Below are positions 35,645-50,925 of a stretch of 64,000 bases of DNA, in pieces. Origin of the DNA: Lacisediminimonas profundi (GTDB lineage Bacteria > Pseudomonadota > Gammaproteobacteria > Burkholderiales > Burkholderiaceae_D); assembly GCF_008831265.1 (NCBI RefSeq), contig NZ_VTTH01000003.1, positions 372,001-436,000 of the forward strand, written 5' to 3'. Position numbers and translations under genes: made by a program. A model generated the notes under the pieces. It saw only the letters and a program-made list of their open reading frames with translations, was not told the origin of the DNA and ran no database searches. Every line of letters begins with the position of its first letter. The stretch's first letter is position 1.

Positions 35645-36522
35645 TGAAGAAAATTCGCAAGGCAGTGTTTCCGGTTGCCGGCCTCGGTAGCCGCTTTCTG
35701 CCGGCAACCAAGGCGCAGCCCAAGGAAATGCTGCCCATCGTCGACAAGCCGCTGATCCAGTATGCGGTGGAAGAAGCTGTCGCAGCCGGCATTACCGAGA
35801 TGGTATTCATCACCGGCCGCAACAAGCGCGCGATCGAAGATCATTTCGATAAGGCCTATGAGCTGGAGGCCACCCTCGAAGCGGCCGGAAAGGAAGCGCT
35901 GCTGGATCTGGTCCGGCATGTGATCCCCAAGCATGTCTCCTGTATTTTCATCCGGCAGGCGGAGCCTCTGGGTCTAGGACACGCGGTCTTGTGTGCCAGG
36001 CCGGTGGTCGGCGACGAGCCTTTCGCCGTGTTGTTGGCAGATGACTTCATGGACGTGCCGGAGGGCACCCCGCCGGTAATGGCGCAGATGACCGCGCTGT
36101 ATGAGTATGAACAGGCAAATATCCTTGCGGTGCAGGATGTTCCGCGAGCGCAGACACGCCAGTACGGCATTGTCTCGTCCACGCCTTACAAGACCAATAT
36201 CGAGCAGGTCAACGCCATCGTCGAGAAGCCGGATCCGGAGCACGCGCCATCGACGCTGGCCGTGGTCGGGCGCTATGTGCTGCAGAGCCGCATCTTCAAC
36301 CATCTGGAAAACCTCGGCCACGGCGCCGGCGGCGAGATCCAGCTGACCGACGGCATTGCGGCCTTGATGAAGGAGCAGCGCTTGCTGGCCTACCGCTACC
36401 AGGGCACGCGTTACGACTGCGGTTCCAAGCTCGGCTACCTGAAGGCAACGCTGGCGATGGGTCTCAAGCACCCGGAGACGGGCGCTGCCTTCGCCGAGTA
36501 CCTGAAGGAAATGCAGCTTTGA
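35644..36522 (+). CDS. galU: UTP-glucose-1-phosphate uridylyltransferase
   Basis: Makes UDP-glucose for envelope polysaccharides and trehalose. It has 292 aa. The nucleotide-binding signature is [18 protein letters not shown] near the N-terminus, with [18 protein letters not shown] and [20 protein letters not shown] also typical. It overlaps ligA by 1 bp at the start and def by 4 bp at the end, so ligA-galU-def is probably one translationally coupled transcript. Confidence 0.97.
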
Positions 36523-37052
36523 GCGTGCGCGAAATCCTGCGCATGGGCGACGCCCGCCTGCTGCGGCAGGCCGAGCCCGTGACGGCATTCGGCACGCCGG
36601 AACTGGATGCGCTGATTGCAGACATGTTCGAGACCATGCACGCTGCCGAAGGGGCCGGCCTGGCCGCGCCCCAGATCGGCGTCAACCTGCAATTGGTGAT
36701 CTTTGGTTTCCGGCAGAACACGCGTTATCCGGATGCGCCCGAGGTGCCGGAAACGGTGTTGATCAATCCGGTGATCACGCCGCTCGACGCGCATATGGAA
36801 GAGGGCTGGGAAGGGTGTTTGTCGGTGCCCGGATTGCGTGGCATGGTGCCGCGCTTTACCCGCCTGCGTTACCGCGGGTACGACCAGGCCGGGAATGTGA
36901 TTGACCGCGAGGCCGAGGGCTTCCATGCGCGGGTGGTGCAGCATGAATGCGACCACCTGGATGGGGTGCTGTATCCGATGCGGATACGGGATTTCACCAA
37001 GTTCGGATATACGGATATCCTGTTTCCGGGGCTTGATGCAGTCGACGATTAG
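36519..37052 (+). CDS. def: Peptide deformylase
   Basis: Fe/Zn hydrolase that removes the N-formyl group from new proteins. It has 177 aa from a TTG at 36519 that overlaps the galU stop as TTGA; a GTG at 36525 is the alternative. The three family motifs are present: [17 protein letters not shown] and the metal site QHECDHLDG. No fmt is next to it, so this is likely a second or stand-alone deformylase. Repeat copy 3 starts 27 bp after its stop codon. Confidence 0.95.
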
Positions 37053-37079: not shown

Positions 37080-37901
37080 GCTCCCTCCCTTTCAAGGCTG
37101 AGCCTTACCCCTATCCGTGGGTGAGTGGTTTTGCGGCTTTTTGGCTTGCGGGTGGTGTGGCTGGGTTTGGTGTTTGTGGTTGTGAAGCCGGGAGACACCC
37201 CGGCTGGTGTGTTCCTTTCTTTTAGAAAAAGAAAGGAACCAAAGAAAAAACGTCAAAACCCACTTGGCCAACGCCTGCCTCGATAGCCAACCAGACTCGG
37301 ACGCCTGGGCCGAACCATTGCGGCGTTCGCGAGGGAGGTCCTGCCACACGTTCGCCGCTGACCGGGATCAGTCAACCCGCTTCAATGCCGCCGACCGCAC
37401 ACCACCGCTCGTTGACTCCCAATGTCTTTCGAAGCCGCTAATTGGCTCGTGAGGTTGGGTTGCCAAGGGCGCGGGTATCCCCGGGAGCAACTGCGGTGCT
37501 CTGCCTTTCGTGGAACAGACCCGTCGCTTGTTTGAAGCTTCGAAAAAAATTAAGAGTCAACGGTGCGCCGGGCATCGGTATAAGACACTTCGCCGGGTTG
37601 GCTGACTAGGTAAGCCGCACAAAGCCGAGGGACCATCTCTCGCGAACGTCGCACTGGATTAGCCCAGACATCCGAGTCTGGTTGGCTATCGAAGCGGGCG
37701 TTGGCCAAGTGGGTTTTGACCTTCTTTTCTTTGGTTCCTTTCTTTTTTCAAAAGAAAGGAACACACCCGCCGGGGTGTCTCCCGGCTTCACAACCACAAA
37801 CACCAAACCCAGCCACTCCAACCGCAAGCCAGAGAGCCACAAATCCACAAAACCGCTCAACCACGGTTATGGGTAATGCTCAGCCTTGAAAGGGAGGGAG
37901 C
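37080..37901 (+). repeat. Composite inverted repeat element, copy 3 (intact ends)
   Basis: 822-bp palindromic element with perfect 24-bp terminal inverted repeats: 37080-37103 (begins GCTCCCTCCCTTTCAAGG) and its reverse complement at 37878-37901. The left type-2 arm and right type-1 arm are homologous throughout, more strongly in their outer halves. Examples are 37169-37189 with 37783-37803, and GACTCGG shared only by the two arms of this copy. Both arms keep the 13-bp hairpin GTTCCTTTCTTTT / AAAAGAAAGGAAC. No target-site duplication is evident. It fills the gap between convergent def and DUF2863 genes and carries no transposase. Confidence 0.9.
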
Positions 37902-37953
37902 GATGAAGTCGATCAGCCCTGACCCTCTTGCTGCGGCGGAAAAACATTGACGA

Positions 37954-39222
37954 TCAATGCAAATGCGTCGGTGCTTCCGCCACATTTTCCGGCATCTCCG
38001 CATGCACCAGCTCCGCATCCTGGTCGGCAAACAACGGCGAACCGCAGTCGTCGCAGAACTCCATCGGAAAAATCTCCGCGTGATGCTTGATGTCGGCGAT
38101 GCCGTTTTCGCGCAGCAGGGTGATGATCTGCTGGATCGGCGTCTGCTCCTCGCTGATCACCGGCTTGCCGGAGATCAGGTCGCGCGCCATCAGGCTGTCC
38201 AGCGGCTCTTCCTCGCCGCTCTCTTCTCCGTACAGCGGCCAGACTATGCCGTAGACCAGCTCGCCATCCTGCTTCAAGGAAAAGCCGATGCGGTATTCGT
38301 CGATCCGGCCACCGGACTCTGCGCTGCTGAATCCGGCAATGATCGCCGACAGTGCGGTCGCTTCAATCGACAGCAGCTGCGTCAGGTAATGCACGGCGGC
38401 GTGAACGGAGATCGGGCGGATGCGTTTGTCACCCTCGCGGCAGGCGACGAAGTAGGCTTCTGGCAGCAGCAGTTCGACGGCGCAGCCTGGCATCAGGCGT
38501 TCGATGTTGGGGATGGTCTGGCTTTGCCACTGCTGATAGGCATTCGCCCGGGCTGCGGCCAGGTCGGTGCCCGCCGGCTCGGGGGCTTGCCAGCGGAAGA
38601 AGGGACCCTGCGGCGCGGTAACCACTGCGGCCAGCAGATAGCGGGTGTCGGCCAGGAACGGCGCCGTCTGCTGCGGATTTGCTGCCAGCCGGACCGGCTT
38701 GCCGTCCACCGCTGCGACAGCCATCTTTTGCAGCAGCGAGTAGGTTTCCGCATGAGTGCGCGGAAGCTGGTCTATGGAATACAGGGCCGGCGCCAGCGCC
38801 AGCCGGGTATCGGCGGCCAGCAGGTGGGCGTACATGTGCGCCGACAGGGTGTTGAGCATGTCCGCCGGTACTGGGCCGGAGGGAATGTTATAGCGGGTCC
38901 AGGCGAGGACAGGCACGGCAACCAGCAGCGCCTCCCAGGTTTTGCCATCGTGTTCGAGCGTGCAACTCTCGCTGGCCGATTCGGCCGAATCCATCAGGGC
39001 GTCATAGGCAGCTGGATCATGCTGGAACAGATGGTCCAGCGCGCTATCGATGGTTTGCTGATGGCCGGTGACCATCTGCTTGTGCAACACGGCGTCGAGT
39101 TGGCGCTCCCAGAGTCGTTCCTCGATGCGGCTGCCGGCGGCCAGCGTTGCTTGTGCAAGCTGGATCAGCCGCTGGCTTTCGCCCGAGGGCTTGTGGGATC
39201 TTGCTTTACCGGGACGGCGCAT
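37954..39222 (-). CDS. DUF2863 family protein
   Basis: 422-aa cytosolic protein of a family found mainly in Burkholderiales, with no known function. There is no signal peptide or membrane helix. The C-terminus has a CxxC pair (EFCDDCGSPLFADQDAELVH), which may bind metal. The N-terminus is basic (MRRPGKARSHKPSG). The rest is mixed alpha/beta without recognisable catalytic motifs. Its 3' end faces repeat copy 3. Confidence 0.8.
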   Translation of the reverse strand: MRRPGKARSHKPSGESQRLIQLAQATLAAGSRIEERLWERQLDAVLHKQMVTGHQQTIDSALDHLFQHDPAAYDALMDSAESASESCTLEHDGKTWEALLVAVPVLAWTRYNIPSGPVPADMLNTLSAHMYAHLLAADTRLALAPALYSIDQLPRTHAETYSLLQKMAVAAVDGKPVRLAANPQQTAPFLADTRYLLAAVVTAPQGPFFRWQAPEPAGTDLAAARANAYQQWQSQTIPNIERLMPGCAVELLLPEAYFVACREGDKRIRPISVHAAVHYLTQLLSIEATALSAIIAGFSSAESGGRIDEYRIGFSLKQDGELVYGIVWPLYGEESGEEEPLDSLMARDLISGKPVISEEQTPIQQIITLLRENGIADIKHHAEIFPMEFCDDCGSPLFADQDAELVHAEMPENVAEAPTHLH

Positions 39223-50701: not shown

Positions 50702-50894
50702 CGTCAGGGCAGGACGGACGTGGTCGCTGCGACAAAAAGCCCGGGAGCCGTCAACTTGCTTGCTGCTCCTGTGTTATGCTTTCCGCCTATTAAAACGTGC
50801 CCGCTACACCCAATACCACAGCCCTTCCCCACAACTTGATATGCAATCCGCCAACCGGTCAGGCCGTGTCGCGGAAGGTTCATGAACCCGCTAA

Positions 50895-50911
50895 CTTCGC
50901 GAAGCGCGAAG
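50895..50911 (+). promoter_or_regulatory. Hairpin abutting the sucA ribosome site
   Basis: CTTCGCG / CGCGAAG with an AAG loop, immediately followed by the Shine-Dalgarno region AAAGGTGAG (50912-50920). It may set translation initiation or mark the 5' end. Confidence 0.4.
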
Positions 50912-50925
50912 AAAGGTGAGCAAAG

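Follow-up and report, generated by a model that had tools for sequence, protein, structure and literature searches.

A dispersed palindrome with paired, inward-facing predicted terminators at gene ends in Lacisediminimonas profundi

Why should a bacterial genome hold a palindrome of several hundred base pairs between the ends of two convergent genes? In Lacisediminimonas profundi such a palindrome occupies positions 37080-37901 of the window (the whole stretch of 64,000 nucleotides analyzed here), between a peptide deformylase gene on the plus strand (36519-37052; Pfam PF01327, E 6.6e-51) and a DUF2863 gene on the minus strand (37954-39222; PF11062, E 6.1e-158). The gap is convergent, as the first-pass annotation of this DNA had described it, with the two genes ending at 37052 and 37954. 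That annotation left the choice between a non-autonomous, MITE-like mobile element and an element of termination or genome architecture. The answer that we favor, with moderate confidence, is that of a dispersed twin-terminator palindrome that would insulate gene ends, termination being predicted from the sequence.

The palindrome itself is beyond doubt. Positions 37080-37103 are, as claimed, the exact reverse complement of 37878-37901 over 24 bp (chance expectation ~3e-5 in 64 kb at the GC content of the window). Against its own reverse complement the palindrome is identical at 662 of 771 aligned positions (score 890, while 20 shuffles reached at most 42), and the two arms were also detected separately, in stretches of 137 nt (89%), 117 nt (81%), and 78 nt (83%). 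The inner arms (37410-37435 and 37537-37562) enclose a variable center at approximately 37436-37536. A consensus built from 30 copies is a near-perfect palindrome over the outer ~220 bp of its arms (215 of 221 pairs), far less palindromic in the inner part (108 of 145 pairs), and least conserved in the middle (0.60-0.64). However, the proposed 822 bp are not the whole footprint, since sequence in common with other repeats of this genome runs on past 37901 to ~37949 (by eye). The footprint at 37080-37949, to which no strand is assigned, thus comprises the 822-bp palindrome and, at its right, a module that we call B.

None of this sequence appears to code for protein. The four ORFs tested in it have no Pfam match above the cut-off (best E 0.042), in line with the earlier statement that no transposase is encoded. 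A peptide string, GDTPAG, is simply the translation of the conserved core described below; its reading frame closes at a point that varies from copy to copy, and no excess of changes at third positions was found in it, so protein-coding arms were rejected. A known Rfam family was likewise rejected, as nothing at the palindrome exceeded the gathering score and a search of six loci at E<=10 gave 13 matches, every one below it. The window yields only two tRNAs and the sucA RNA motif, the latter at 50841-50922. Neither the phage nor the plasmid collection contains a match to the window copy, for which we discarded phage or plasmid cargo as an origin. A version from Variovorax matches two large records of the plasmid collection, with no listed feature beneath it in a gene table that is incomplete.

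The element would work through a structured core that each arm carries once, both cores facing inward. Read inward, the core of each arm runs GAAGCCGGGAGACACCCCGGC(G)GGTGTGTTCC TTTCTTTT, then AAAAGAAAGGAACCAAAGAAAA. Its hairpin P2, GGGAGACACCC-CGGC-GGGTGTGTTCC, has together with the T tract the form of an intrinsic terminator, and a second hairpin, P3, pairs CTTTCTTTT with AAAAGAAAG. In the left core, on the plus strand, P2 lies at 37190-37215 (predicted fold -12.0 kcal/mol; covarying across genera), the T tract TTTCTTTT at 37216-37223, and P3 (GTTCCTTTCTTTT-AGA-AAAAGAAAGGAAC; arm search and covariation) at 37211-37239. In the right core, on the minus strand, P2 lies at 37758-37783 (-15.4 kcal/mol; placed by the self-alignment), the T tract at 37750-37757, and P3 (arm search and self-alignment) at 37734-37762. 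An alternative stem P1 (GCCGGG/CCCGGC; 37187-37204, plus strand, in the left core) overlaps P2 and has bases in common with it, and a further stem, P4, takes one of its strands from the loop of P3.

This core is far more constant than its surroundings. All 60 arms of the 30 copies keep P2 and a tail with T at seven of eight positions, i.e., a GC-rich hairpin directly before a T tract, with a mean predicted P2 fold of -14.7 kcal/mol (range -6.9 to -18.3). Across these arms 36 of 39 core sites are invariant vs 62 of 146 in the rest of the arm (Fisher 5.8e-9), where 9.7% of the cells differ; at that rate 228 non-major cells would be expected in the core and 44 were observed. The same holds for singletons, of which the core has one in 2340 cells and the rest of the arm 43 in 8712 (11.5 expected in the core, Poisson P 1.2e-4). 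Outside the core, variation is concentrated in shared alleles, given that 62 of the 146 sites there never vary. We infer that the core may be kept because P2 terminates transcription, which it probably does in the cell. A generic terminator scan of the region found five candidates vs a shuffle mean of 2.1 (sd 1.5), which is not clearly above background.

Cores from other genera show what has been preserved. In a first alignment of 35 selected cores from many genera, P2 and P3 are paired in 93.3% of cells (45-60% in slid controls), both sides have changed at 8 of the 19 P2 and P3 pairs, and the covariation score was reached by none of 500 shuffles. Of the 35 scan loci that had been picked this alignment used 29, and of the 13 phylum loci listed outside the own genome it used 4. 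It left out L217 and L218, which have P2 without P3, L260 (likely a chance match), the near-duplicates L236, L249, and L263, and also L187, L189, L190, L191, L193, L194, L197, L199, and L201, among which the P3 matches L189 and L190 have no clear P2 by eye. With all of these rows except L199 restored (49 cores), pairing is 88.4% (slid controls 49-58%) and the covariation score 0.205 vs 0.095 in shuffles (0/500); eight pairs of P2 and P3 are changed on both sides, a number reached by 29 of 500 shuffles. The search pattern that supplied many of the aligned rows prescribes some of P2 and the 5' half of P3; much of the covariation signal comes from columns that it leaves free, namely the outer strand of P2 on its 5' side, the 3' half of P3, and the whole of P4. 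P2 and P3 are kept paired across genera by compensatory changes.

How far the core extends depends on the search. With the window copy as query, 4 of 39 other genomes gave weak matches, mostly to the core, and a strict P3 pattern was found in 7 of 398 phylum genomes including the own one, most of which have an upstream stem of different sequence and the same form (by eye). A degenerate P2 pattern matched at least 81 stretches of named genomes, mostly Burkholderiales among the matches listed (Variovorax, Rhodoferax, Acidovorax, Ramlibacter, Curvibacter, Polaromonas, Comamonas, Lacisediminimonas, and others), which also include some other betaproteobacteria and a few Gammaproteobacteria. From 84 scan matches, 46 among those listed had enough flanking sequence, and 29 of these lie inside a palindrome of 376-1438 bp. 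A covariance model detected the core in 147 of the 399 genomes scanned in the order (own included) and in 73 of 159 genera. For each genome up to 10 candidates were scored, and some of the genomes scanned had supplied rows to the model; as it was built on the first alignment, it favors the structure of that alignment. Thirteen genomes chosen from the positives, mostly for having a single contig, contain 144 cores. Neighboring cores within 2 kb (n = 50, spanning 301-1904 bp) face inward in 42 pairs, run in the same direction in 7, and face outward in 1; leaving aside G423 and G559, which were picked after their pairs had been seen, these numbers become 35, 7, and 1. A short form of only ~320 bp across two inward cores occurs in one genome (G284, loci L396-L401), its cores ending 3-93 bp from the flanking genes and five of the six loci lying between tandem genes.

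Within L. profundi the family is large. When the element was searched for in its own genome (4.5 Mb in 17 contigs), 101 matching stretches were obtained, on both strands because a palindrome matches itself in either orientation. Counting as a copy two inward cores with both flanks, there are at least 34 two-armed copies (L001-L030, L038, L041, L042, and L043), and a further one (L037) is cut by a contig end. The search for additional copies proposed in the first-pass annotation therefore succeeded, with full-length copies 82-90% identical; the matched stretches of 30 copies measure 717-844 bp. Two of them share the window with the copy described here, i.e., L026 (31100-31871, plus strand, convergent site) and L030 (14191-14924, minus strand, tandem site). 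The strict P3 pattern marks 84 arms in the genome (41 + 43; none with the reversed pattern as control). At L039 (C11:9344-11170) a full copy precedes two partial ones in a tandem array, in which three consecutive cores lie on the minus strand. The outer arm ends of L014, L013, and L026 carry short simple-repeat arrays (AAAACCAC, ACCAAACT, GCCAAAGAGCCGCAA), which suggests growth by slippage. Several copies are located at contig ends, and such repeats may break assemblies.

The copies are strongly biased toward gene ends. Gene calls, made by a codon-usage caller trained on this genome and approximate, place 20 of 30 copies between convergent and 10 between tandem genes. In the larger set, 24 of 34 copies occupy convergent sites vs 55 of 395 background gaps (Fisher 2.9e-12), and not one of these 34 occupies a divergent site. 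In ten other genera, 42 inward pairs divide into 18 convergent, 20 tandem, and 4 divergent, vs 39, 216, and 38 of 293 background gaps (Fisher 1.8e-5); G615, G752, and G601 have no inward pair and fall outside this count. The 46 flanked scan matches, among those listed, comprise 14 convergent, 25 tandem, 3 divergent (two of them one and the same place), and 4 unassigned. Strand tells a similar story: 76 of 104 assignable cores lie downstream of a gene on their own strand (29/35 in this genome, 21/27 and 26/42 elsewhere), the agreement in the named-genome set alone (26/42, P 0.16) not being significant. This count covers the part of the cores that a strict pattern captured, with duplicates removed, and sets aside 14 cores that have no assignable upstream gene. 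Neither of the solitary cores L040 and L069 follows the gene end closest to it.

Comparison with two congeners (G001 and G002) shows what these sites look like when empty. The flanks of the window copy and of L026 are syntenic in both, with 49-215 bp between them, and seven further copies yielded 11 syntenic gaps of 22-462 bp vs 778-1004 bp here, none with a match to the strict core pattern. These seven came from a search in which 12 gene ends were joined into one query; of its 19 matches five had no syntenic right flank, and L301, L305, and L306 were left out. In the comparison of occupied and empty sites that had been proposed, none of 15 syntenic gaps was occupied (nine copies, two congeners), so that these nine copies are lineage-specific; at the tested sites they would have been added at gene 3' ends after the split from the congeners, or lost in both. 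By eye, the L026 site has a perfect bidirectional hairpin terminator in both relatives, and here that ordinary terminator is missing and the palindrome stands in its place. The right gene at L011 has retained its native terminator beside the palindrome. Replacement of a native terminator is therefore suggestive from one case and not a rule.

The ends of the element tell another part of its history. The sequence GCTCCCTCCCTTTCAAGG forms one half of a 27-bp hairpin, H1, and its complement the other; in the window copy the left half lies at 37080-37097 (plus strand) and the right at 37884-37901 (minus strand). Intact H1, which has no T tract, occurs at 44 other places in the genome (reversed control 0), and 27 of 30 such places read with their flanks have no core within 1 kb. 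By eye, it usually lies between a module A and module B, forming a small modular repeat A-H1-B (H1 being GCTCCCTCCCTTTCAAGGGGAGGGAGC; an example is C1:127949-127973). In L002, L018, and L025 the same modules border the large palindrome, as if it sat inside H1, and L005 has module B on both sides (all by eye). The H1 repeat belongs to the same kind of site and often encloses the palindrome, which may have inserted into H1, or whose loss may have left H1 intact. At the window copy, module B (AAGTCGATC...CTTGCTGCGGCGGAAAAACATT; 37905-37949, plus strand) resembles by eye L005R, L018L, L025R, and the flanks of solitary H1, and no module A was seen at the left. A 21-nt module B pattern has 17 sites in the genome at up to 3 mismatches (reversed control 0), from which the more diverged module of the window copy is absent. 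The first-pass annotation had taken the 24-bp termini as the boundaries; these termini contain half-arms of H1, and across the 30 copies the ends differ, other copies stopping at many different points of the arm. The ragged ends and the H1 halves together mean that the 24-bp termini are not the real boundaries, an outcome that the first-pass annotation had itself named as refuting an element with these ends.

These ends bear directly on the reading of the palindrome as a non-autonomous DNA transposon (MITE) moved in trans and free of host function, its position at gene 3' ends reflecting mere tolerance. Such an element would leave what is seen here, two-armed copies (at least 34) that have no conserved ORFs and are missing from all 15 orthologous gaps, and the location bias is common to the H1 repeat, since H1 without a core within 1 kb lies between convergent genes in 19 of 27 cases and never between divergent ones; as H1 has no T tract, tolerance could explain the location without any function. 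REP repeats, too, are reported mostly between convergent and unidirectional genes (PMC3733652). However, terminal inverted repeats at constant ends were not found, repeat modules lying outside the 24-bp repeats of ragged copies, and no target-site duplication, for which the first-pass annotation had proposed to look, was seen at the 24-bp ends (by eye, with relatives too diverged to place the junction). The family searched for a mover was Y1_Tnp; its sole gene (C3:61209-61541) has no match to the core, H1, A, or B patterns beside it, and with the modules of the palindrome absent around it, a Y1 transposase as mover finds no support. A constant core amid drifting surroundings is unexpected for dead copies, and the window copy is without a match in the phage or plasmid collections. 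We consider this reading unlikely. Of what the first-pass annotation proposed, the multi-copy, non-coding character and the absence from readable orthologous sites stand, and the inward terminator-shaped cores fit its alternative of termination, whereas the 24-bp termini do not stand as boundaries; at these termini no target duplication was seen by eye. The Y1 gene itself (locus L070, with its flanks) is RAYT-like and lies near inverted copies of a different repeat, GGGGTCAGACTCGAT..., and a similar string, GGGGTCAGGTCTCGATATG, adjoins copies L017 and L022.

The overlapping stems raise a second possibility, that of a conditional RNA switch or 3'-UTR regulatory RNA in which P1 competes with P2, and P3 with P4, so that termination or 3'-end processing is regulated. 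The shared bases of P1 and P2 and the strand that the P3 loop gives to P4 suit such a switch, as do changes on both sides at four of five P4 pairs and the minimum-energy fold of the whole core, which is P1 with P3 and not P2; for termination, P2 must accordingly win during transcription. The covariation score of P1 and P4 jointly exceeds every shuffle, but their pairs changed on both sides are no more numerous than in shuffles (5 vs 4.9 in the first alignment, 8 vs 6.4 with all rows), and P1 is paired in 67-75% of cells, partly through misalignment. Regulation of this kind seems to us quite improbable.

The arms outside the core are a separate matter, and termination alone does not explain them. 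The two arms of one copy are as similar (identity 0.881) as a left and a right arm taken from different copies (0.879). Both arms are changed at the same site in 166 cases, vs 44 under independence and 160 in the cross-copy control, and compensatory cells number 133 vs a cross-copy mean of 123 and maximum of 175. Left and right arms thus draw on one allele pool, which suggests exchange among arms and copies. As the arms do not covary within copies, a single giant RNA or DNA hairpin under selection was rejected, with compensation not above the cross-copy control. A DNA-level element, such as a cruciform or protein-binding site for chromosome organization or replication, would account for a long palindrome in dozens of copies with strictly conserved blocks, but we regard it as highly improbable because the core is strand-specific in its order, with the stem before the T tract, and tends to lie on the strand of the gene upstream of it, and because the absence of within-copy covariation means that full-length pairing is not maintained copy by copy.

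Known systems resemble the palindrome in part. Bidirectional terminators between convergent genes are common, with a hairpin and T tract serving both genes; such a terminator ordinarily consists of one short hairpin that works in both directions, of the kind that both relatives have at L026 (by eye), whereas the palindrome has two separate predicted terminators, hundreds of bases apart, within a repeat family. MITEs and small palindromic insertion sequences of the ERIC/RU type are non-coding, multi-copy, palindromic, and intergenic, as is the palindrome, in which, however, neither constant ends nor target duplication were found and which is far longer than the RU units of 103-168 bp. Stem-loop repeats and REPs cluster at gene 3' ends, between convergent or unidirectional genes, according to three reports (PMC2267715, PMC1590033, PMC3733652). 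With REP/BIME sequences, as the last of these reports describes them, the palindrome shares the character of dispersed extragenic palindromes, found mostly at gene 3' ends in convergent and unidirectional sites and in modular arrays; in contrast, REP units measure 20-40 bp (PMC3733652), vs 717-844 bp matched in the 30 copies and 27 bp for the separate H1 module, and no RAYT gene flanked by the repeats was found at the one Y1_Tnp gene. Terminators formed by inverted uptake sequences (DUS/USS) are also dispersed repeats doubling as intrinsic terminators at gene ends, as noted in two reports (PMC2267715, PMC1590033), but consist of ten-base words in one hairpin. A published name or description of the family was not found, six exact core strings included, in literature that mostly did not cover subscription papers, and its novelty is unproven.

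We return, then, to a pair of terminators. The inward geometry, the strand agreement, the constancy of hairpin and T tract, and the compensatory changes across genera together argue for termination from both sides. Transcription running off a neighboring gene would enter an arm and terminate at the GC-rich P2 hairpin followed by UUUCUUUU. In the window copy the T tracts lie 164 and 197 nt beyond the two stop codons, and between these convergent genes both polymerases would halt before the center, leaving ~500 bases free of opposing or antisense transcription. Peptides of the GDTPAG type, where annotated as proteins, would then be annotation errors. The same convergent gene pair, occupied in one species and empty in related ones, offers a natural experiment. 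More tentatively, and with considerable doubt, one may see here a widespread, undescribed class of structured 3'-end elements in Burkholderiales, with paired inward cores and switchable P1/P2 and P3/P4 stems, in which long palindromes spread to gene ends, replace native terminators, are homogenized between arms and copies, and provide shared and possibly regulated boundaries. If our reading of the palindrome as a pair of terminators is right, then in many genomes of the order a set of genes would finish in a self-similar pair of terminators that spreads, and not in independently evolved terminators alone.
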